Assembly (NCBI RefSeq): GCF_008124615.1
Contig: NZ_VNIB01000005.1
Location: forward strand, 124,001-188,000
DNA length: 64,000 bases
Direction of reading: 5' to 3'
Origin: Geothermobacter ehrlichii
GTDB lineage: Bacteria > Desulfobacterota > Desulfuromonadia > Desulfuromonadales > Geothermobacteraceae
Shown here: positions 19,773 through 39,543 of the stretch, piece after piece
Numbering within the stretch: the first letter of the stretch is position 1
How the letters are laid out: the number at the start of each line of letters is the position of its first letter
Notes under the pieces: model-generated
The model's input: only the letters and a program-made list of their open reading frames with translations
The model's database searches: none
Told to the model about the DNA's origin: nothing
Translations under genes and position numbers: made by a program

Positions 19773-19843
19773 AAAAAAGGGCCCCGTGAAGGAGAGGGAT
19801 CACGGGGCCAATGCTCTTCAGCGCAGGGCTGAAGATCCGATTG
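19773..19843 (-). ncRNA. Candidate small RNA A (about 71 nt) of a tandem pair
   Basis: The minus strand shows a weak promoter (-35 TTGCGC 19873-19878, 17 bp, -10 TAAGGT 19850-19855) giving a start near 19843. The transcript would fold a first hairpin (8-bp arms 19815-19822 and 19828-19835) and a strong intrinsic terminator (10-bp arms 19780-19789 and 19800-19809, then six U from 19778 to 19773). The terminator loop reads UCCCUCUCCU. No open reading frame with a ribosome site lies inside. A dyad (CGAAAAGC/GCTTTTCG, 19857-19864 and 19881-19888) spans the promoter and could be an operator. Promoter and start are inference; the terminator is directly visible. Confidence 0.4.
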
Positions 19844-19896: not shown

Positions 19897-19963
19897 AAAA
19901 AAGACCCCGTGCACGGAGGGGGGGTGTACACGGGGTCAGCCCGAGCTCCAGGAGCTCAAGGCG
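19897..19963 (-). ncRNA. Candidate small RNA B (about 67 nt) of a tandem pair
   Basis: The minus strand has a good promoter (-35 TTGAAA 19993-19998, 17 bp, -10 TAGTAT 19970-19975), start near 19963. The transcript would carry a short GAGCUCC/GGAGCUC hairpin (19943-19957) and an intrinsic terminator (arms 19903-19911 and 19929-19937, six U at 19897-19902). The loop contains ACCCCCCCUCC. The terminator stem differs from that of RNA A by a compensated pair (A-U for G-C), so the two look like paralogues that keep structure. A 10-bp dyad (19962-19971/19981-19990) covers the -10 and spacer and may bind a repressor. Confidence 0.45.
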
Positions 19964-19969
19964 ACTCGA

Positions 19970-22622: not shown

Positions 22623-25062
22623 GGCTTCCCTCCGGCTTTGTGGCGGTTGATTCGTCCTTCCCTTCGCGCAGCAGGCGCAGCGAGTTGCCGATGACGCTGA
22701 CCGAGCTGAAGGCCATGGCGGCGGCGGCAAAGATGGGCAGCAGCCGGCCGCTGGCCGCCAGCGGCAGGGCCAGCAGGTTGTAGCAGAAGGCCCAGGCCAG
22801 GTTCTGCCGGATGATTTTCAGGCTGTCACGGCCGTAGCGGAGGGCCAGCAGCAGGCGTCGCAGGTCGGGACGTGTCAGCACCAGGTCGGAATTTTCCAGC
22901 GCGATGTCGGTCCCGCCGGACATGGCGCAGCCGACGTCGGCGGTGGCCAGGGCGACGGCATCGTTGATGCCGTCGCCGACCATCATCACCCGCCGGCCCT
23001 TCTGTTTCTGCCGGTCCAGCCATTCGGCCTTCTGTGCCGGGGTCATCCCGGCCGCGACGCTGTCGATGCCGAGGGCCGCGGCGACATGGTGCGCCGTCTG
23101 TTCGCGGTCTCCAGTCAGTATGGCAGTGCGGATGCCCGCCCTGCGCAGGCCGGCGATGACGTCGGCGGCTTCCGGGCGGATGTCGTCTGCCAGGGTGATG
23201 GCCCCGAGGCAGCGGCCGTTGCGGCTGACAAAGACGACCGTTTCGCCGGCATCGGGGGACAGACCGGGAATGACGGTGTCCGGCGCCGCCAGTTCAGCCT
23301 TTCCGACCCGGATTTCGTCCCTGTCGCCCGTCAGGACCACGCCCAACCCCGGCAGGGTTTCCGCTCCCGCCTCCAGGGGCGGGTGAATGCCCCGACGGTT
23401 CGCTTCCGCGACGATCGCCCGGGCCAGCGGGTGGCCGGATCCCGACTCGCAGCGGGCGGCGGCCTCCAGCAGTTCGGTTTCGTCGCCACCGAGTGGGTAG
23501 AGGCCGGTGACGGCCGGCCGGCCGTGTGTCAGGGTGCCGGTCTTGTCGAAGGCGACCAGGTCGATCCGTCCCGTTTGTTCGAGGATGTCGCCGCCGCGAA
23601 AGAGAATTCCCCTGGCCGCCGCCTGGCCGCATGCGACCAGGATGGCCGTCGGTGTGGCCAGGCCGAGGGCGCAGGGGCAGGCGACGACCAGCACGGAGAC
23701 CGCGTTGAGCAGGCCCGCCCGGTTGTCGCCGGCGATGAGGGCCCAGTAGCCGAAGGTGGTCGCGGCGACGAGAACGACCAGCGGCACGAACACGGCCGCC
23801 ACCCTGTCCGCCATGGCCTGGATGGGCGCCCTCCGGCTCTGGGCGTCTTCGACCAGCGCCGCCACCCGGGCGATGAAGGATTCGCCGCTGGCGGCCGTGA
23901 CCCGGACTTTCAGGGTATGGGTCAGGTTCATGGTGCCGGCGTCGATTCGGTCGCCCGGCCGTTTCGGAACCGGTTGCGATTCGCCGCTGACGGCCGAGGC
24001 ATCGATCTCGCTTTCGCCCTCGGTGACCGCGCCGTCGGTCGGGAAGCGTTCGCCGGCGGCGACCAGGACCAGGTCGCCCGGCCGCAGGCTGTCGCTTGCC
24101 ACCTCCCGGAAGCCGTTTTCGGTGATCAGCATCGCCCGTTCCGGGGCCAGGGAAAGCAGACGGTCGATGCCGGCGGCCGCCCGCTGCCGGGCGGATGTTT
24201 CGAGCAGCCGCCCGAGCAGGATCAGGGTGACGATCATGGCGGCGGTGTCGAAGTAGACTTCGCGCCCGGCCAGCATGGCGAACAGGCTGTAGCCGTAGGC
24301 GGCCAGCACGCCGAGGGCGATGAGCAGGTCCATGCCGGCCTGCCGGTTGCGCAGGCTGCGCCAGGCTCCGGCCAGAAACGGCCAGCCGCAGTAGAAGACG
24401 ACGGGGGTGGTCACCGCGGCGGCGAGTCCCTGCATCAGCCGGCGGGCGGTCGGGTCCATCCCCTGGAAGTAGCCGGCGTAGAGTGCCAGCGAGTAGCCCA
24501 TCAGCTGCATGGAGAGGAAGACGGCGGTGCCGAAGCGGTAGAGGGTGCGCCGCCGCTCCCTTGCGGCGCCCTGCCGCCGGGCGTCGCTGGTGTGGGGGCG
24601 GGGCAGGTAGCCGAGGCGGGCGATGGTGCGGCACAGGTCCGTCACCTCGCATTGTCGCGGATCGAAGACAATCCGCAGCCGGTGGGTGCCGTAGTTGACC
24701 CTGGCCTGGATCACACCGGGAGTTCGTTCCAGTACCTTTTCCACCAGCCAGCAGCAGCTGGCGCAGCGGATGCCGTCGAGCAGCAGGTGGATGCTTGCCC
24801 GATCCGGTCCGGCGGGATGGACGTGGGACGCCAGCTCCTCGCTGTCGAACCGGCGCTGGAAGACATCGCGATCGACGCCGGGCTGTCGCCAGTCGCGCCG
24901 GCGGTAGAAGCTGTCGAGGCCCGACTCCCGGATCAGGGTCCAGGCGCCGAGGCAGCCGTGGCAGCAGAAGCGGTGTTCGATCTCGTCCTGCCGGTGGACG
25001 ACGAGATCGCCCGGCGCGATCGGCAGGCCGCAATGTTCGCAGATGAGTTCGGCCTCTACCAT
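22615..25062 (-). CDS. ccoI: Copper-exporting P1B ATPase for oxidase assembly
   Basis: An 815-residue P-type ATPase. The N-terminus has a Cys-rich element (C8, C11, C33, C34, C37) typical of CcoI/FixI, then a heavy-metal-associated domain with GIRCASC (97-103). Core motifs: TGES-like SGES (359-362), the ion-path CPCALG (462-467), phosphorylation site DKTGT (506-510), HP locus SGHPLA, and GDGIND. CcoI moves Cu across the membrane for the CcoN binuclear centre. It is coupled with ccoH (start touching the ccoH stop) and ccoS. Confidence 0.93.
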   Translation of the reverse strand: MVEAELICEHCGLPIAPGDLVVHRQDEIEHRFCCHGCLGAWTLIRESGLDSFYRRRDWRQPGVDRDVFQRRFDSEELASHVHPAGPDRASIHLLLDGIRCASCCWLVEKVLERTPGVIQARVNYGTHRLRIVFDPRQCEVTDLCRTIARLGYLPRPHTSDARRQGAARERRRTLYRFGTAVFLSMQLMGYSLALYAGYFQGMDPTARRLMQGLAAAVTTPVVFYCGWPFLAGAWRSLRNRQAGMDLLIALGVLAAYGYSLFAMLAGREVYFDTAAMIVTLILLGRLLETSARQRAAAGIDRLLSLAPERAMLITENGFREVASDSLRPGDLVLVAAGERFPTDGAVTEGESEIDASAVSGESQPVPKRPGDRIDAGTMNLTHTLKVRVTAASGESFIARVAALVEDAQSRRAPIQAMADRVAAVFVPLVVLVAATTFGYWALIAGDNRAGLLNAVSVLVVACPCALGLATPTAILVACGQAAARGILFRGGDILEQTGRIDLVAFDKTGTLTHGRPAVTGLYPLGGDETELLEAAARCESGSGHPLARAIVAEANRRGIHPPLEAGAETLPGLGVVLTGDRDEIRVGKAELAAPDTVIPGLSPDAGETVVFVSRNGRCLGAITLADDIRPEAADVIAGLRRAGIRTAILTGDREQTAHHVAAALGIDSVAAGMTPAQKAEWLDRQKQKGRRVMMVGDGINDAVALATADVGCAMSGGTDIALENSDLVLTRPDLRRLLLALRYGRDSLKIIRQNLAWAFCYNLLALPLAASGRLLPIFAAAAMAFSSVSVIGNSLRLLREGKDESTATKPEGSHA

Positions 25063-32911: not shown

Positions 32912-35410
32912 ATGTTTCGTCTCACCCTGCATCGCAAGGTTCTGTTCGCCTTCTGGGCCCTGTCGCTGGTTCCGCTGGTCATTCTTGCTCTCAATTCCAG
33001 CCACAGCCTGCGGCTGGTCGAGCAACTGCTGCTCGAGGGAGCGACACGGGCGCTCAACGAGCAGGCGGCCGAAGCCCTCGAGGTGCGGGCTGAGCTGGTC
33101 GCCCGCGAGGTGTCCGACTTTCTCCGTTCGGCGGAAGAAGACCTGCGCGCCTTGAGCCTGCTGCCGCCCGATCCCGCCATGTACAGGGATTTTGCCCGCA
33201 GCCACAAGCGGCAGATCTGGTACCGGCGGCTCGATGTCGATCCGCCGCGCGACGTGCTCGAGGACATTCCGCTCTACAGCGAAATCGCCTTCATCGGACC
33301 GGACGGCCGGGAGCGCATCCGCGTTGTCGACGGCGAGTTGTCGACGCGGCTGAGGGACGTGTCGCGGCCGGAGAACACCACCTACAGGAGCGAAACCTAC
33401 TTTCTGCGGGCCCGGGAGCTGCCCGCCGGAAAGATCTATGTCTCCCACGTCACCGGCTGGCACATCAACCGGGAAGAACAGCTCGCCGGTGCCGATTCGC
33501 CGGAGAAGGCCGTCGGCGGCCGGCAGTACCGGGGCGTCGTCCGCTACGCCGCACCGCTGCGGCGGCCGGATGGCAGCCTGCGGGGGGTGATCGTGCTCAG
33601 CCTCGATCACCGCCACCTGATGGAGTTCACCCAGCACGTCACTCCGACTCGCGAACGCTACGTGGTCTATCCCTCCTACAGGAGCGGCAATTACGCCTTC
33701 ATGTTCGATGACGAAGGCTGGATCATCACCCACCCCAAGCAGTGGGACATCCGCGGCCTCGACCGGCAGGGAAGGCTGGTGCCGCCCTACACCGAGAAGA
33801 CCTCGCCGGAGCTGGTGGAGAAGGGGGTGATCCCCTTCAACCTCTTTTACGCTGCCTTCGTCCACAAGAACTACCCGGTGGCCGCCCGCGAGGTTCTGGC
33901 CGGCCGCTCCGGCGTGGTCGACGTAACCAATGTCGGCGGTTCGCAGAAGATCATGGCCTACGCCCCCATCTTCTACGACGGCGGCGACTATGCCGAAAAG
34001 GGTATTTTCGGTGGCATCACCATCGGTGCCGAGGTCAAGAACTTTCACCGTCCGGCCCTCGAGGCGTCGCAGCTGATCCGGCGGCAGTTCCGTTCTTTCA
34101 TGACCCAGAGCTGGTTCCTCATCACCCTGACCGGCCTGGCGGTCTTCGTCGCCGCCTACCAGCTGTCGCGGGGGATAGCCCTGCCGCTGCAGGAGCTGAT
34201 CCGGGGGACGCGGGAGATGGCGCGGGGCAACCTGTCGACCAGCATCAACGTGACCTCGGACGATGAGATCGGCCAGCTGACCCGCTCCTTCAACACCATG
34301 GCCGCCGAGCTGCGCCTGCGCCGGGAACGGCTGCTGAAGACCCTCGAGGATCTGCGTCGCTCGCGCAAGGAGATCCTGCGCGAGCGCAACTTCAAGGAGA
34401 CGGTGTTCGAGAATATCGAAACCGGCATCCTGACTCTCACGCCCGAAGGGATGGTCTCCTCGATCAACGGCCCGGCCCAGCGGATTCTTGGCCTTTCCGC
34501 CCGGCCGCAGCCGGTGCCATGGAGCGATCTGCTGCACAACTGGCCGGAGCTGGAGAGCGTGCTAGAGCGGGGGCTGAAAAAGGATCCGGTCGAACGCTGG
34601 AGCGAGTATGTCACCATCGAGCGCGATGGCGAAGTGCTAACCTTCCGTCTGGCCCTGCTGCCGCTCGGCCATCACCGGCACTCGGGGCATATCCTGACCA
34701 TCGAGGATCTGACCGAGCGGGTGCAGATGCGGCAGCGCATGGAGCGCATGGAGCGGCTGGCCTCCCTCGGCCGCCTGTCTGCTGGAATCGCCCATGAGGT
34801 ACGCAATCCCCTGACCGGCATCAGCCTGCTGCTCGACGAGCTGCACGACCGGCTGCTGGGGCAGGAAGGGGACCAGCAGCTGATCCGCCGGGCCCTGCAG
34901 GAGATCGAGCGGCTGGAGAACCTGGTCGGCGAACTGCTCAACTTCTCTTCCGTGCACCAGAGCGAAATGATGGCGGGGGATGTCGGCAAGGTGGTCGAGG
35001 ACCTGCTCTTTCTGCTCAAGAAGCAGTTCGAAAAGCAGAATATCGCCCTTCGTTTCGATCGCGAACAGAGTCTGCCACCGGTGGCTTTCGATACCAACAA
35101 GCTGAAGCAGGCCCTGCTCAATCTGCTGACCAACGCCATGGATTCGATGCCCGACGGGGGAGAGCTGGCGGTGGCGGCCGCCGTCTGCGACGGAGGTGTG
35201 CTGATCACCATCCGCGATGCGGGCGAGGGGATGACCGCCGAGCAGATGCGGCTGATATTCGAGCCCTTCTACACCAGCAAGAGTGGCGGCACCGGGCTGG
35301 GACTGGCCATCACCCACAACATCATTTCCGAGCACGGCGGGCGGATCGACGTACAGAGCCGCCCCGGGCAGGGGAGTCTGTTCAGCGTCTGGCTGCCGGC
35401 AGCTGGCTGA
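32912..35410 (+). CDS. NtrB-like sensor kinase with dCache, HAMP and PAS domains
   Basis: An 832-residue membrane kinase. Helix 1 ([18 protein letters not shown]), a large extracytoplasmic sensor of about 350 residues with double-Cache features ([43 protein letters not shown]), helix 2 ([19 protein letters not shown]), HAMP, a PAS domain ([20 protein letters not shown]), H-box [17 protein letters not shown] (His near 628), N-box [10 protein letters not shown] and G-box [12 protein letters not shown]. The NtrC-type regulator gene starts 145 nt later, so the two form a two-component system sensing an external small molecule, likely an organic acid or amino acid (inference from Cache type). Confidence 0.92.
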
Positions 35411-35555
35411 CTTTGGCCACTCCGGGTTGGTTTTTGCAGTATTTTCTGTTGAGCAGTGGCGAAAAACCACCGCTTTTCTGTTGCCAGTCGCCGCGGCTTC
35501 TTTTAGACTGGGTCGTATACGCTGTGCCGGCGCGCATATACCCGAGGTGAGAAGC

Positions 35556-36938
35556 ATGGAAAAGATACTGATAGTCGACGACGAGGCCTTCATTCGCGAA
35601 AATCTCGAACGGATTCTCGCCGAGGACGGCTATCGCACCTTTTCCGTCGACAACGGCGACGAGGCGATCGGCATGGTCGCCGAAGAAGAGATCGACCTGG
35701 TGCTGCTCGATCTCAACCTCGGCAACCGGTCGGGACTCGACGTGCTGCGGGAGCTGAAGGAGATCGACCCGCAGCTGCTGGTCATCATCATCACCGGTTA
35801 CGGCACGGTCGAAAGCGCCGTCGAAGCGCTCAAGCTCGGCGCCTACGACTACATCAAGAAGCCGTTCAAGGCCGACGCCATTCACCTGATCGTCCGCCTG
35901 GCCCTGGAGACCCAGAACCTTCGCCGCGAGGTCCGGCAGCTGAAACGGGGCAGCGAGCGCGGCACCCTCGGCACCGACATGGTTGGTTCCAGCCCGCAGC
36001 TCGAGCAGATCTACCGCCAGGTGCGCGAGGTGGCCAAGCACGAGACGGCAACTGTGCTGATCACCGGCGAAAGCGGCGTCGGCAAGGAGCTGGTCGCCCG
36101 CGCCATCCACAACCTGTCACCGCGCGCAGGCAGGCCCTTCATCGAGATCAACTGCGGTTCACTTCCGTTCAACCTGCTCGAAACCGAGCTGTTCGGTCAC
36201 GAGCGGGGAGCCTTCACCGACGCCAAGACGCGCAAGATCGGCCTGTTTGAGGAGGCCAACGGCGGCACTATCTTTCTCGACGAGGTCGGGGAGATGGACA
36301 TGAACCTGCAGGTCAAGCTGCTGCGCGTGCTCGAGGACCGTCGCATCCGCCGGCTCGGCGGCACCCGCAACATCGACATCGACGTCAGGGTGGTCGCCGC
36401 CACCAACCGCGACCTGAAAGAGGCGATCGAGAGCCGGGAGTTTCGCGAGGATCTTTTCTACCGGCTCAATGTCTTTCCCATCCACATTCCGCCCTTGCGC
36501 GAGCGCCGGGAGGACATTCCGCCGCTGCTTGACCATTTCATCGCTCTTTACGCCCGCGCCTTCAACAAGAAGATTCGCGGCGTCTCCCGCGAGGCGCTCG
36601 ATCTGCTCATGCGCTATCACTGGCCCGGCAACGTGCGCGAGCTGAAGAACGTCGTCGAGCGCATCTGCATCATGCACAATGTCGAGACCATCCGGCCCGA
36701 GCACCTGCCAGGCGAGATCTGGGGAGAATCGCCCCGCAGCGAATCGCCCTTCAGGTTCGAGATCCCGCCGGAAGGGATTGCCCTGGAGGAAATGCTGGCG
36801 CAGATCGAAAAGGAGCTGATCGAAAAGGCGATCGGCATTACCGGCGGCAACGTGGCCAAGACCGCCCGGCTGCTCAACATTCCGCGCGGCACCCTGCGCT
36901 ACAAACTGGAAAAGTACGGTTTCCGGCAGGAAGAGTAG
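35556..36938 (+). CDS. NtrC-family sigma-54-dependent response regulator
   Basis: A 460-residue regulator. Receiver with D9, phospho-site D52 (LLDLN), T80 and K102 (KKPF); AAA+ domain with Walker A GESGVGKE (171-178), the sigma-54 contact loop GAFTDA (218-223), and a Fis-type helix-turn-helix ending [23 protein letters not shown] 35556 has GAGGTGAGA upstream; a longer in-frame start would run into the kinase gene. It activates sigma-54 promoters, and one lies 153 bp after its stop. It carries its own terminator. Confidence 0.95.
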
Positions 36939-36985
36939 GGGGAGGGTTTCGGCAGACCGCCGGTAGTGGCGGATGACAGGGAGCG

Positions 36986-37011
36986 GGCGGCCGAAATCGG
37001 CCGCCTTTTTT
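36986..37011 (+). terminator. Intrinsic terminator of the NtrC-type gene
   Basis: GGCGGCCGA (36986-36994) pairs with TCGGCCGCC (36997-37005), followed by six T. It closes the ntrBC-like transcript, so the second plus-strand terminator at 37159 must belong to another RNA. Confidence 0.85.
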
Positions 37012-37090
37012 GATGGCCGATGAATTTAATTATATTTAAATATATGTCAAACAAGTGTAGTAAAGTATAAAAATACAGTTATAGACGGTT

Positions 37091-37104
37091 GGTATCGACC
37101 TTGC
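37091..37104 (+). promoter_or_regulatory. Sigma-54 promoter (-24/-12)
   Basis: TTGG ending at 37092 and TTGC ending at 37104, with exactly 10 nt between GG and GC, in the context TTGGTATCGACCTTGCT. This matches the consensus YTGGCACGrNNNTTGCW at the invariant positions. Upstream, 37013-37085 is markedly AT-rich with a 14-bp palindrome (37031-37044), which could be the bending or enhancer region. Predicted start is 37116. Confidence 0.62.
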
Positions 37105-37115
37105 TCTTTGACAAC

Positions 37116-37197
37116 GATCGTTGACGGACCCTGATCTTCTCCCCGTGGGGTCTTTATCTCCCCGAACGCATCCTCCTCCGCGTTCGGGGATTTTTTT
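37116..37197 (+). ncRNA. Candidate sigma-54-dependent small RNA downstream of the NtrC-type gene
   Basis: The predicted transcript is about 82 nt, from the sigma-54 start to the T-run of an intrinsic terminator. A 5' hairpin (GACCC 37127-37131 with GGGTC 37148-37152) exposes a UCUUCUCCCC loop; the terminator stem (37159-37168/37181-37190) exposes CAUCCUCCUCCG. Both loops are C-rich and could pair with GGAGG ribosome sites. No start codon with a ribosome site and open frame of useful length is present. Position after a sigma-54 activator gene recalls CrcZ after cbrB in Pseudomonas. Confidence 0.5.
37159..37197 (+). terminator. Intrinsic terminator of the candidate sRNA
   Basis: A 10-bp perfect stem TCCCCGAACG/CGTTCGGGGA, loop CATCCTCCTCCG, then seven T. 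Only the plus-strand reading has a T-run; the minus strand continues GATAAAGAC, so it is not the hypF terminator. Confidence 0.88.
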
Positions 37198-37263
37198 GTT
37201 GGCAGGAAGGAAAGAGAGGGGAATCGAGAGCCGCGAATCGAGTATCGAGGTTCGAGCTTCGCT

Positions 37264-39543
37264 TCACGCCCCCGCTTCTTCGTATCGCGCCCCCGCCACC
37301 ACCGCCTGGCCGAGGGCGAGGCCGCCGTCGTTGGGTGGCACCAGGGAATGCCGCAGCACCTCGAAGGATTCGGCCTGCAGCCATGAGGAGATGGTCTCGG
37401 TGAGAAACCGGTTCTGAAAGACGCCGCCGGAAAGGACCACGACGTTCAGACCTTCTCTGGTCCGCAACTCCCGGCAGACCGCAACGACGATCCGGGCCAG
37501 GCTCAGATGGAACCGGCAGGCGATGCGTCCGGCATCGACGCCGGCCAGAACGTCGTCGACCAGATCGCGGATCAGCGGGGCCGTCTCGATGATCAGCGTT
37601 CCGTTCTGTTCCGCCAGATCCCAACCGTAGAGCCTGTCCGTTTTCGGCCCCGAGATGGCCATCTCCAGCCCGAGCGCTGCCTGGCCTTCGTAACTGACCT
37701 CTTCCCGTAACCCGGCCAGGGCGGCGACGGCGTCGAACAGCCGGCCGCAACTCGAGGTCAGGGGGGCGTTGAGCCCCTTGGCCATCATTTGCCGCAGCAG
37801 CCTGATATCGTCCTCGGAGCGTCTTTCGACCAGCGGCAGCCGGGGCCAGTCGTCGCCGTAGGCGTGCTGCAGGTAGCTGGCCGCCATGCGCCAGGGCTCA
37901 CGGGTGGCGGCGTCGCCGCCGGGCATGGGTACGGACCGCAGATGGCCGGCGCGCCGGAAGGACGCCAGGTCGCCGACCAGGAATTCACCGCCCCAGATGG
38001 TGCCGTCTTCTCCCAGGCCAATGCCGTCGAAGATGACGCCGATGGCCGGTCCCGGGTGGCCATGTTCCGCCAGGCAGCTGGCCAGGTGGGCATGGTGGTG
38101 CTGGACCGCCAGCTTCGGCAGCTCGGCGAACTCCTCGGCGAAACGGGTCGACAGGTAGTCGGGATGCAGGTCGTGGGCGACCAGGCGCGGCTGCACCTCG
38201 AGAACCCGCTCGAGATGACGGCGGATTTCATCCAGCGAGTCCAGCACCCCGGCGTTTTTCAGATCGCCGATGTGCTGGCTCAGATAGGCCCGGTCGTCCC
38301 GCGTCAGGCAGAGGGTGTTCTTCAGCTCGGCGCCGACCGCCAGCACCGGCGTCTGGGGTCTGGGCAGCAGGATGCCGCGCGGCACGTAGCCTCGTGCCCG
38401 ACGGATGAGCAGCGCCTGTCCGGCCATGACCCGGGCGATGGAGTCGTCGGCCCGCACGTGGATGCGCCGGTTGTGCGTCAGCCAGGCGTCCGCCACTCCC
38501 CGCAATCGCTCTGCGGCCTCGTCGTCGCGGTAGAGGATCGGTTCGTCGCTGAAATTGGCGCTGGTCATCACCAGGGCGTCGAAGGATTCCAGCAACAGAT
38601 GGTGCAGTGGCGTATAGGGGAGCATGACCCCGAAATAACGGTTGTCCGGTGCCACCAGTGGCGACAGGGAATGCCCCGGTCGCTGCCGCAGCAGGACGAT
38701 GGGGTGCTCCGGGCCGGTCAGCAGGCGCTCCTCAATGGCGTCGAAGCGGGCGAAGCGTCGGACCCGTTCCAGGTCGAAGGCCATCAGGGCGAAGGGTTTT
38801 TCGTCCCGGGCCTTGCGTCGGCGCAGCTTGGCCACCGCCGCGTCGTTGGTAGCGTCGACCGCCAGATGATAGCCACCGAGTCCCTTGATGGCGACAACGG
38901 CGCCCTGGCTGAGCAGGCGGACGGCTTCCTTCAGCGGGTCGCCGGCGATATCCAGCCTGTCGGCGTCGGTCAGGCGCAGTTGCGGACCACAGTCGGGGCA
39001 GGCGTTGGGCTGGGCGTGAAACCGGCGCGATCCCGGGTTTTCGTATTCGGCCCGACAGGCGTCGCACATGGGAAAATCGGCCATGGTGGTTTTCGGCCGG
39101 TCGTAGGGGATGCCCTCGATGATGGTGTAGCGCGGTCCGCAGTTGGTGCAGTTGATGAAGGGATAGCGGTAACGCCGGTCGGCCGGGTCGAAGAGTTCGC
39201 GCAGGCAATCGTCGCAGACATGGGTATCGGGGGCGATTTGCGCCCGCGCGTCTGCGCCATGTACCGACTGGCGGATTTCGAATCCGGATCCCCCGGCGGC
39301 CGGCTGTTCGCGTGTTTGCAGGGAGGTGATGACGGCCAGGGGAGGATGCTCCGTTTGCAGGGCCTGGACAAAGGCGTCGACGGCCGCGGCATCGCCTTCG
39401 ACCTCGATCTTCACCCCCCGGGCGTCGTTCAGCACCCAGCCGGAGAGGCGATGTTTCTGCGCCAGCTGGTAAACAAAGGGGCGAAAGCCCACTCCCTGGA
39501 CGATGCCCTCGATTTCGATGCTTCTGCGAATGTGACAGGCCAT
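37264..39543 (-). CDS. hypF: Carbamoyltransferase HypF ([NiFe]-hydrogenase maturation)
   Basis: A 759-residue enzyme that makes the cyanide ligands of the NiFe site from carbamoyl phosphate. Order: acylphosphatase domain (EGIVQGVGFRPFVYQLA, 1-90), two zinc fingers (CDDC/CTNC, CDAC/CPDC, about 110-190), YrdC-like domain (GLGGYHLAVDA), and Kae1-like domain (VQHHHAHLASCLAEHG, LSGGVFQNRFL). I chose ATG 39543, since the HypF N-terminus begins shortly after. No other hyp or hydrogenase gene is in the window. The 273 bp between it and pfkA hold nothing I can assign. Confidence 0.95.
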   Translation of the reverse strand: MACHIRRSIEIEGIVQGVGFRPFVYQLAQKHRLSGWVLNDARGVKIEVEGDAAAVDAFVQALQTEHPPLAVITSLQTREQPAAGGSGFEIRQSVHGADARAQIAPDTHVCDDCLRELFDPADRRYRYPFINCTNCGPRYTIIEGIPYDRPKTTMADFPMCDACRAEYENPGSRRFHAQPNACPDCGPQLRLTDADRLDIAGDPLKEAVRLLSQGAVVAIKGLGGYHLAVDATNDAAVAKLRRRKARDEKPFALMAFDLERVRRFARFDAIEERLLTGPEHPIVLLRQRPGHSLSPLVAPDNRYFGVMLPYTPLHHLLLESFDALVMTSANFSDEPILYRDDEAAERLRGVADAWLTHNRRIHVRADDSIARVMAGQALLIRRARGYVPRGILLPRPQTPVLAVGAELKNTLCLTRDDRAYLSQHIGDLKNAGVLDSLDEIRRHLERVLEVQPRLVAHDLHPDYLSTRFAEEFAELPKLAVQHHHAHLASCLAEHGHPGPAIGVIFDGIGLGEDGTIWGGEFLVGDLASFRRAGHLRSVPMPGGDAATREPWRMAASYLQHAYGDDWPRLPLVERRSEDDIRLLRQMMAKGLNAPLTSSCGRLFDAVAALAGLREEVSYEGQAALGLEMAISGPKTDRLYGWDLAEQNGTLIIETAPLIRDLVDDVLAGVDAGRIACRFHLSLARIVVAVCRELRTREGLNVVVLSGGVFQNRFLTETISSWLQAESFEVLRHSLVPPNDGGLALGQAVVAGARYEEAGA

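Follow-up and report, generated by a model that had tools for sequence, protein, structure and literature searches.

A candidate sigma-54-dependent small RNA beside an NtrC-family regulator gene in Geothermobacter ehrlichii, homologous to a transporter 3'UTR element of its relatives

The two-component locus and its predicted RNA

The analyzed window, a 64,000-nucleotide stretch of the Geothermobacter ehrlichii genome (contig NZ_VNIB01000005.1, positions 124,001 to 188,000), encodes a two-component pair on its plus strand. The sensor histidine kinase (32912..35410, from its ORF and Pfam) combines a periplasmic dCache-like region with HAMP, PAS, HisKA and HATPase domains; HATPase_c, HAMP and HisKA score above the Pfam cut-off, and dCache_1 (42.4 bits, cut-off 45) and PAS_8 (20.1, cut-off 21.8) fall just under it. 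The NtrC-family response regulator (35556..36938) contains a receiver, a sigma-54 activation domain and HTH_8, all three above cut-off. Its ORF is listed from 35283, and homology places the start at ATG 35556. As the preliminary description of this DNA had claimed, the regulator gene has its own plus-strand terminator (36985..37011), formed by a hairpin at 36985-37006 and a T run. A GGCCnAAAnnGGCC-like palindrome in this terminator is kept at the same place across several genera and could double as a binding site. Downstream, a convergent gene ending at 37264 resembles hypF, as named by eye.

A sigma-54 (-24/-12) promoter element, TGGTATCGACCTTGCT, is read directly at 37090-37105 on the plus strand and is also found after the gene in orthologous loci. 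Its GG (37091-37092) and GC (37103-37104) are spaced by 10 nt, in agreement with the pattern TGG-N8/9-TTGC[AT], and the coordinates and spacing first given for it are exact to the base. The stricter pattern TGGYAYN5TTGCW matches twice in the window (0.11 expected from shuffles) and 28 times genome-wide, against 10 matches for the reversed control pattern, indicating that about two thirds of such sites exceed chance. As an internal check on the pattern, sigma-54 sites also lie about 110-150 nt past the match to three other NtrC-type regulator genes of the same genome: C1:120660-122018 (site at C1:122168), C2:141232-142578 (C2:142690) and C11:84349-85701 (C11:84212). The C1 site precedes a pilin-like ORF; a sigma-54 site between PilR and pilA is a known arrangement.

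Judged by the distance from the -12 element and by the terminator end, transcription is predicted to start near 37116 and to stop at the T run at 37197, yielding a plus-strand RNA of about 82 nt (37116..37197). The segment 37116-37198 folds at -30.2 kcal/mol (z = -2.86), and a covariance model that includes the window's own row scores the RNA at 55.3 bits. The fold consists of hairpin 1 (37126..37153, plus strand, loop GAUCUUCUCCCCGU) and a terminator hairpin with a T7 tail (37159..37197, plus strand), the latter also identified by a terminator search and by compensatory changes. The terminator is as strong as originally described, with a stem at 37159-37169/37180-37190 and seven T residues at 37191-37197. 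Its 10-nt loop, AUCCUCCUCC (37170..37179, plus strand), is anti-Shine-Dalgarno-like. No gene lies on the ~82-nt RNA, in keeping with the earlier reading; an overlapping plus-strand ORF with a TTG start (37121-37417) runs through the terminator. Elsewhere in the window, on the minus strand, 19773-19836 and 19897-19967 form a tandem of RNA-like stretches, each with two hairpins and a C-rich loop in its terminator (UCCCUCUCCU and ACCCCCCCUCC). They follow what appears by eye to be a small multihaem-cytochrome-like gene, and similar stretches occur in some relatives, for example L293-L296 and L304.

Comparison with the nearest relative (G001) shows that 5 of the 11 terminator pairs are changed on both sides (C-G to U-A, A-U to G-C twice, C-G to G-C and U-A to G-C), yet the loop AUCCUCCUCC is identical. 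Across 30 element rows, namely 33 elements minus the three near-identical rows L117, L119 and L120, terminator pairs 2-6 are each changed on both sides in 4-11 rows, with the register anchored at the loop and row L140 out of register. The alifold structure, computed on 20 of the 33 rows, has two-sided changes in 9 of 12 pairs. Because a terminator stem must pair anyway, its covariation alone is no proof of an sRNA. The motif CCUCCUCC occurs exactly in 27 of the 33 elements, a count that is biased because a looser C-rich pattern beside a T run had served to collect them. A motif-free search offers a fairer test: in all nine loci in which the promoter precedes the RNA directly (listed below), the strong terminator nearest downstream of the promoter carries a C-rich loop of UCCUCC or CCUCCU type. 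Among 62 strong terminators in 822 kb (the window plus 80 named loci), the loop contains CCTCC in 16, of which 11 are this element by position, and GGAGG in none. The loop of hairpin 1 is of the UUCUCCCC or UUCCCC type in several relatives, and others have a different hairpin 1. Predicted RNA length in the nine loci ranges from 81 to 115 nt, with seven at 81-90 nt.

Orthologous loci and spread of the RNA

Orthologs of the regulator (68-89% identity, at least 658 bits, full-length) were identified in 58 relatives, giving 59 of the 98 genomes searched with the window's own; the next full-length group below them reaches at most about 52% identity. A probable ortholog fragment, G047:C53 (83% over residues 140-393), was left out. 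The DNA after the regulator gene was inspected in all 59 genomes, and three at a contig end were left unclassed (n = 56). The sigma-54 pattern is present on the sense strand in 30 of these 56 regions, 43-594 nt after the gene within the up to 700 nt searched, a count that includes the probably spurious L098 (at 594) and misses G011, whose promoter lies further out. As controls over the same regions, the other strand yields a single match and the reversed pattern yields 0 and 1. Conservation of the promoter and of the stem pairing in relatives, which the preliminary description had proposed to check, is thus borne out, and its central claim of a separate, terminated sigma-54-type short RNA of about 82 nt is supported by comparison, the RNA being conserved beside the orthologous regulator gene.

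The 56 regions fall into several classes. The promoter is followed by the RNA without a transporter in nine: the window, G001, G002, G008, G034, G045, G075, G083 and G095. In 13 others (G003, G011, G013, G014, G016, G017, G022, G023, G033, G036, G041, G056 and G064) it precedes a transporter gene, and a similar two-hairpin RNA lies past the stop codon; G023 has two such promoter-transporter-RNA units in a row, and in G064 the transporter 3' end and the RNA are on a second contig. Promoter and transporter occur without the RNA element in five (G010, G032, G050, G072 and G079), and in three (G031, G051 and G081) the transporter 3' end is beyond the available sequence. Seven regions (G043, G052, G059, G065, G069, G073 and G089) contain the RNA with a promoter that appears sigma-70-like by eye. 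The remaining 19 have neither promoter or RNA nor transporter after the ortholog. Overall, the RNA is present in 29 of 53 decidable orthologous loci, including those of Desulfuromonas sp. BM304 and MAG J078; in Geothermobacter hydrogeniphilus, of the same family as G. ehrlichii, neither RNA nor transporter follows the ortholog. The 80 named loci include two further stand-alone forms, L180 and L188, and three Deferribacterota-type records (L231, L234 and L239) with a sigma-54 site and then a transporter. The ortholog of L238 (Deferribacteraceae) is followed by a sigma-54 site and a different terminated stretch that lacks the C-rich loop, with no transporter match. One family (L114, L115, L117-L121, L262, L273, L275 and L363) has a longer form of the RNA, which includes an additional hairpin (GTTGCTAAGCCATGACAG..CTGTCAGCAAC or close to it) and is preceded by a sigma-70-like promoter; some genomes of this family have no regulator ortholog.

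The transporter, a DASS-type protein, is about 581 residues long. With its first 180 residues, PF00939 scores above the cut-off and TIGR00785 (dass) far under it (39.4 of 198.6 bits). Searching with these residues at E<=1e-15 detects a match in 48 of the 98 genomes and none in eight of the nine stand-alone RNA genomes, the window's included; the ninth, G095, has one elsewhere in the genome. By the same threshold, six of the seven sigma-70-type genomes have the transporter elsewhere and G089 has none. The 120 nt upstream of these six copies contain a sigma-54 site in four cases, and the 3' RNA element follows none of them. In L122 (G003), an in-frame stop interrupts the transporter at residue 356, with the promoter and the 3' RNA element still in place; this may represent the beginning of the transporter loss seen elsewhere. 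In the 13 transporter-type loci, the element begins right after the stop codon and ends at the terminator, as expected of a 3'UTR. Because the mRNA part is absent in the window, its RNA is a homolog of this 3'UTR element and not itself a 3'UTR. The short RNA had been recognized from the outset; that a sigma-54-type transporter mRNA carries a homologous 3'UTR was missing from the first account.

Two covariance models were used to follow the family further. R1 describes the terminator helix only, with 32 of the 33 elements; R3 was built from the 20 of 33 rows whose hairpin 1 could be aligned by eye and was run with stricter Infernal filters. At E<=1e-5, R3 places the RNA in 40 of the 277 genomes of the class, so that the covariance search suggested earlier does return homologs. 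Nineteen of the 40 genomes supplied R3 rows, and matches of either model at its training loci are expected by construction. Twelve supplied rows to neither model: G012, G024, G035, G042, G047, G058, G073, G077, G081, G085, G093 and G097. Among the new matches inspected, the RNA follows a transporter gene in G012 and G047 and is of the sigma-70-like stand-alone type in G035, G077, G093 and G097, with no sigma-54 site within 330 nt. A hypF-like gene is near the RNA in G058 and G042 according to tblastn, together with the transporter's end in G058. At this threshold R3 omits G003 and G056, whose elements were read by eye; both hairpins of G003 fold as expected. No member of the regulator ortholog group was found in the RNA-bearing genomes G035, G058, G077, G085, G093 and G097, which indicates that the link between RNA and regulator is not strict and that the two can part.

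In the window, none of the Rfam families attains its gathering score. Sub-threshold matches are confined to nine loci and include other sRNAs with C-rich loops. The best score for ar14 (RF02344, gathering score 58.8) is 35.8 bits in L064, with none for the window locus L001 at E<=5; anti-hemB (RF02837, gathering score 49.5) scores 21.7 bits in L001 and at best 28.6 in L080. A literature search, which left most subscription journals outside its reach, found no title naming this RNA. The term 'small RNA' is absent from the available text of a study on the G. sulfurreducens RpoN regulon (PMC2725144), and both 'sRNA' and 'small RNA' are absent from the corresponding portions of PMC4641369 and PMC12316311.

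Control, origin and proposed function

The two-component pair looks like a carboxylate sensor system of the DctB/DctD type, given that many of its orthologs adjoin sigma-54 transporter genes and that the distant ortholog L251 has a sigma-54 site ahead of a gene identified by eye as DctP-like. No carboxylate transporter lies beside the pair in the window. Control of the RNA by this neighboring pair is likely: 30 of 56 regions have the promoter behind the orthologous gene, and hardly any variation is seen by eye in the regulator's DNA-binding helix. The preliminary description had drawn the same conclusion for the pair at 32.9-36.9 kb; these two observations speak for it, and the RNA in genomes in which no regulator ortholog was found and the missing upstream motif described below speak against it.

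That motif, TTTATAACGATATTTTAAA, was seen by eye and scored on 39 upstream regions with a matrix trained on 10 sites. Of 26 transporter-type regions, 14 (Deferribacterota-type ones included) have it between -102 and -108 relative to the sigma-54 element, in one case on the other strand. It is absent at that place from all 11 stand-alone regions (the nine plus L180 and L188), the window among them, as well as from 12 other transporter-type regions, L238 and L251. The 12 eye-picked sites all score at least 18.6 bits, among them L076 and L086, which are outside the training set; L077 scores 16.5 at -105 and L181 14.8 at -107 on the other strand. The window's best match, at -23, attains 11.6 bits, compared with 18.6-27.3 for the training sites (p 0.005, uncorrected, from simple shuffles that preserve single-base content only), and p values here mean little because the motif sites were chosen by eye. 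Exact-dyad and EM searches mostly returned the palindrome of the regulator-gene terminator; the first upstream search excluded four loci for being spurious or too short (L078, L094, L098 and L114) and promoters less than 60 nt after the gene (L116). The absence of TTTATAACGATATTTTAAA at this position from the stand-alone forms speaks against the window simply sharing the control of the transporter-type loci, or else for a site that has diverged.

A tree of the 59 regulators was built by a fast method; of its 56 inner branches, 19 are starred and 19 open. In this tree, stand-alone RNAs appear at six places: the window with G001, G002, G034, G008, G045, and a single clade of G075, G083 and G095. 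Since G008 and G045 hang from an open fork, the count of separate origins may differ from six. Within the window's clade, G002 and the window with G001 are stand-alone, G003 has transporter and RNA (it was set as undecided in the tree, its 3' element having been read later) and G004 has neither. The sister of this clade, G023, has transporter and RNA; the forks here are at 86-92, unstarred. The simplest reading is that the coding part was lost and the promoter and RNA were kept; the opposite direction, with a transporter inserted between promoter and RNA, is also conceivable. On balance, we regard it as an even bet that this is a Desulfuromonadales sRNA family moving among three forms, namely a sigma-54 transporter 3'UTR, a stand-alone sigma-54 sRNA after coding loss on several branches, and a sigma-70-like stand-alone gene.

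Our preferred interpretation, to which we assign a probability of roughly 65%, is that the window encodes an sRNA with anti-Shine-Dalgarno loops that acts in trans, is probably bound by Hfq and is produced once the DctB/DctD-like pair is activated, and that a 3'UTR element has here been freed as a stand-alone gene. The pair (32912-36938) would activate sigma-54 RNA polymerase at 37090-37105, and the resulting RNA would expose a C-rich loop in each hairpin, UUCUCCCC in the first and AUCCUCCUCC in the terminator, and finish with seven U. This U tail most likely binds Hfq. Two sequence features of an Hfq-dependent sRNA are present: Hfq itself, detected in 56 of 58 genomes including the window's own (E 1.0e-22 in G000), and the terminal U tract. 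The loops probably pair with the Shine-Dalgarno regions of mRNAs and so lower their translation while the signal of the pair is present. In many relatives, the corresponding promoter drives a DASS-type transporter mRNA that carries the same element as its 3'UTR, from which the RNA is presumably freed by processing. Comparison shows that the window lineage and several others have no transporter gene there and keep promoter and 3'UTR RNA as a stand-alone sRNA gene, presumably after loss of the coding part.

Two specific targets were considered and rejected. Loop-restricted duplexes with transporter start regions barely exceed controls (-9.61 kcal/mol for own start regions, -8.94 for those of other genomes and -9.14 for regulator start regions; 12 start regions, that of L131 misplaced by some codons), so self-regulation of the transporter by its own 3'UTR does not rise above background. 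The same holds for feedback on the regulator mRNA, as loop pairing with the regulator's own start region is weaker than with those of other genomes (-8.2 versus -9.56).

The lack of a specific target in the pairing scores would suit an RNA that sequesters a protein or the ribosome, through CrcZ-like titration or as an anti-Shine-Dalgarno decoy, and does not pair with particular mRNAs. Sponge RNAs from NtrC-type regulators exist, CrcZ being an example, and the terminator loop AUCCUCCUCC resembles the anti-Shine-Dalgarno sequence of 16S rRNA. Inspection by eye reveals no repeated protein-binding motif within the 82 nt, and the anti-Shine-Dalgarno-loop sRNA NfeR1 pairs with mRNAs according to the available text of PMC10746234; on this evidence, sequestration appears unlikely. 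We consider it somewhat more doubtful still that the RNA is a functionless relic, produced by a promoter and terminator left over after deletion of the transporter. Homology to the transporter 3'UTR and the absence of a transporter match from eight of nine stand-alone genomes are what such a deletion would leave behind, but the stand-alone form recurs at six places in the tree (several forks unresolved) with promoter and C-rich terminator kept in nine of nine, and the window and its nearest relative preserve the loop and change the stem with compensation. Moreover, seven loci of another family have the RNA as a gene of its own under a sigma-70-like promoter, with the transporter elsewhere in six and not found in one, which indicates that the RNA outlives its mRNA context.

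Very improbable, finally, is that the hairpins merely provide a second terminator for the regulator or the convergent gene behind a chance promoter-like element. A terminator is indeed present there, and about one third of genomic sigma-54 matches are expected by chance. Against this, the regulator gene has a terminator of its own, and only on the plus strand is the hairpin followed by a T run, so it is not the terminator of the convergent gene ending at 37264. Promoter matches in 30 of 56 orthologous regions versus 0-1 in controls are not readily ascribed to chance, and termination needs neither hairpin 1 nor a C-rich loop.

Related systems and implications

In Pseudomonas, the CbrB-CrcZ system places a sigma-54-dependent sRNA gene after an NtrC-family regulator gene, and the pair controls carbon use. 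CrcZ is several hundred nucleotides long and contains CA-rich, AANAANAA-type sites that bind and titrate Crc/Hfq. The window likewise has a sigma-54-type sRNA gene, as read from sequence, directly after an NtrC-type regulator gene. In contrast to CrcZ, its RNA is about 82 nt long, has two hairpins with C-rich anti-Shine-Dalgarno loops and is homologous to a transporter 3'UTR. No AANAANAA-type site is visible by eye in 37116-37197, and homology to CrcZ was rejected on length and motifs. The parallel with CrcZ proposed in the preliminary description therefore extends to the circuit and not to the RNA itself.

The loops are more reminiscent of ar14/NfeR1 of rhizobia (RF02344), an anti-Shine-Dalgarno sRNA that is linked to an NtrBC-type pair and whose C-rich loops, which carry CCUCCUCC(C) motifs on differing stems, pair with translation start regions of mRNAs. 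As far as the available text of PMC10746234 describes it, NfeR1 has three hairpins and a sigma-70-type promoter repressed by NtrC, and it silences ntrBC. The window RNA, in contrast, has two hairpins and a sigma-54 promoter that is presumably activated, and the sub-threshold ar14 score was obtained for one relative only. The glnA gene is under RpoN/NtrC control. In the transporter-type relatives, the element is situated at the 3' end of an RpoN-dependent mRNA, as are FlmE/CJnc230 of Campylobacter, which is processed from its mRNA (available text of PMC11187230), and GlnZ of enterobacteria, which originates from the glnA 3'UTR (PMC9731577, also available in part). Unlike FlmE and GlnZ, the present element also exists as a stand-alone sigma-54 gene without a coding part and as a sigma-70-like gene in another family. 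Transporter mRNA 3' ends also give rise to NarS, MalH and OppZ; a review (PMC9438474) lists these sRNAs as cut from the mRNA by RNase E, and the portion of it available mentions no sigma-54 or freed forms.

A second case is found on contig 7 of the same genome (G000:C7:22989-23110; L328 and L369). A sigma-54 promoter (22989-23004) and a terminated short RNA with the C/U-rich loop GCUCUCUCUCCCCC lie directly after another sigma-54 activator gene and before a ptsP-like gene, both genes named by eye. BLASTN (E<=1e-3) recovers this RNA in 36 of 58 genomes, its own included. Eight loci were read for the promoter (own included): TTGC is kept in six, and ATGC stands in its position in two. All of six aligned rows share the core CTCTCTCCCCCG without change. 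Rfam at E<=1 gives no match to the RNA in five loci, the one listed match, L374, lying elsewhere. This second RNA supports the idea of an activator-adjacent sigma-54 sRNA beyond one locus.

To our knowledge, few sigma-54-dependent sRNAs have been described, and how 3'UTR sRNAs arise and become independent genes is still an open question. In the present case, a single element can be traced as an mRNA tail, a sigma-54 gene and a sigma-70-type gene, mostly beside the same regulator, making the direction of change and the kept function testable. If the proposed reading is correct, the birth of an sRNA gene through loss of the coding part of an mRNA has been caught repeatedly, and the RNA, rather than the transporter, is the kept output of the two-component pair. 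Taken with the RNA on contig 7, activator-adjacent sigma-54 sRNAs with C-rich terminator loops would then be a regular regulatory device of the order. Such a device would give the Desulfuromonadales, metal reducers included, an sRNA circuit tied to carbon uptake.
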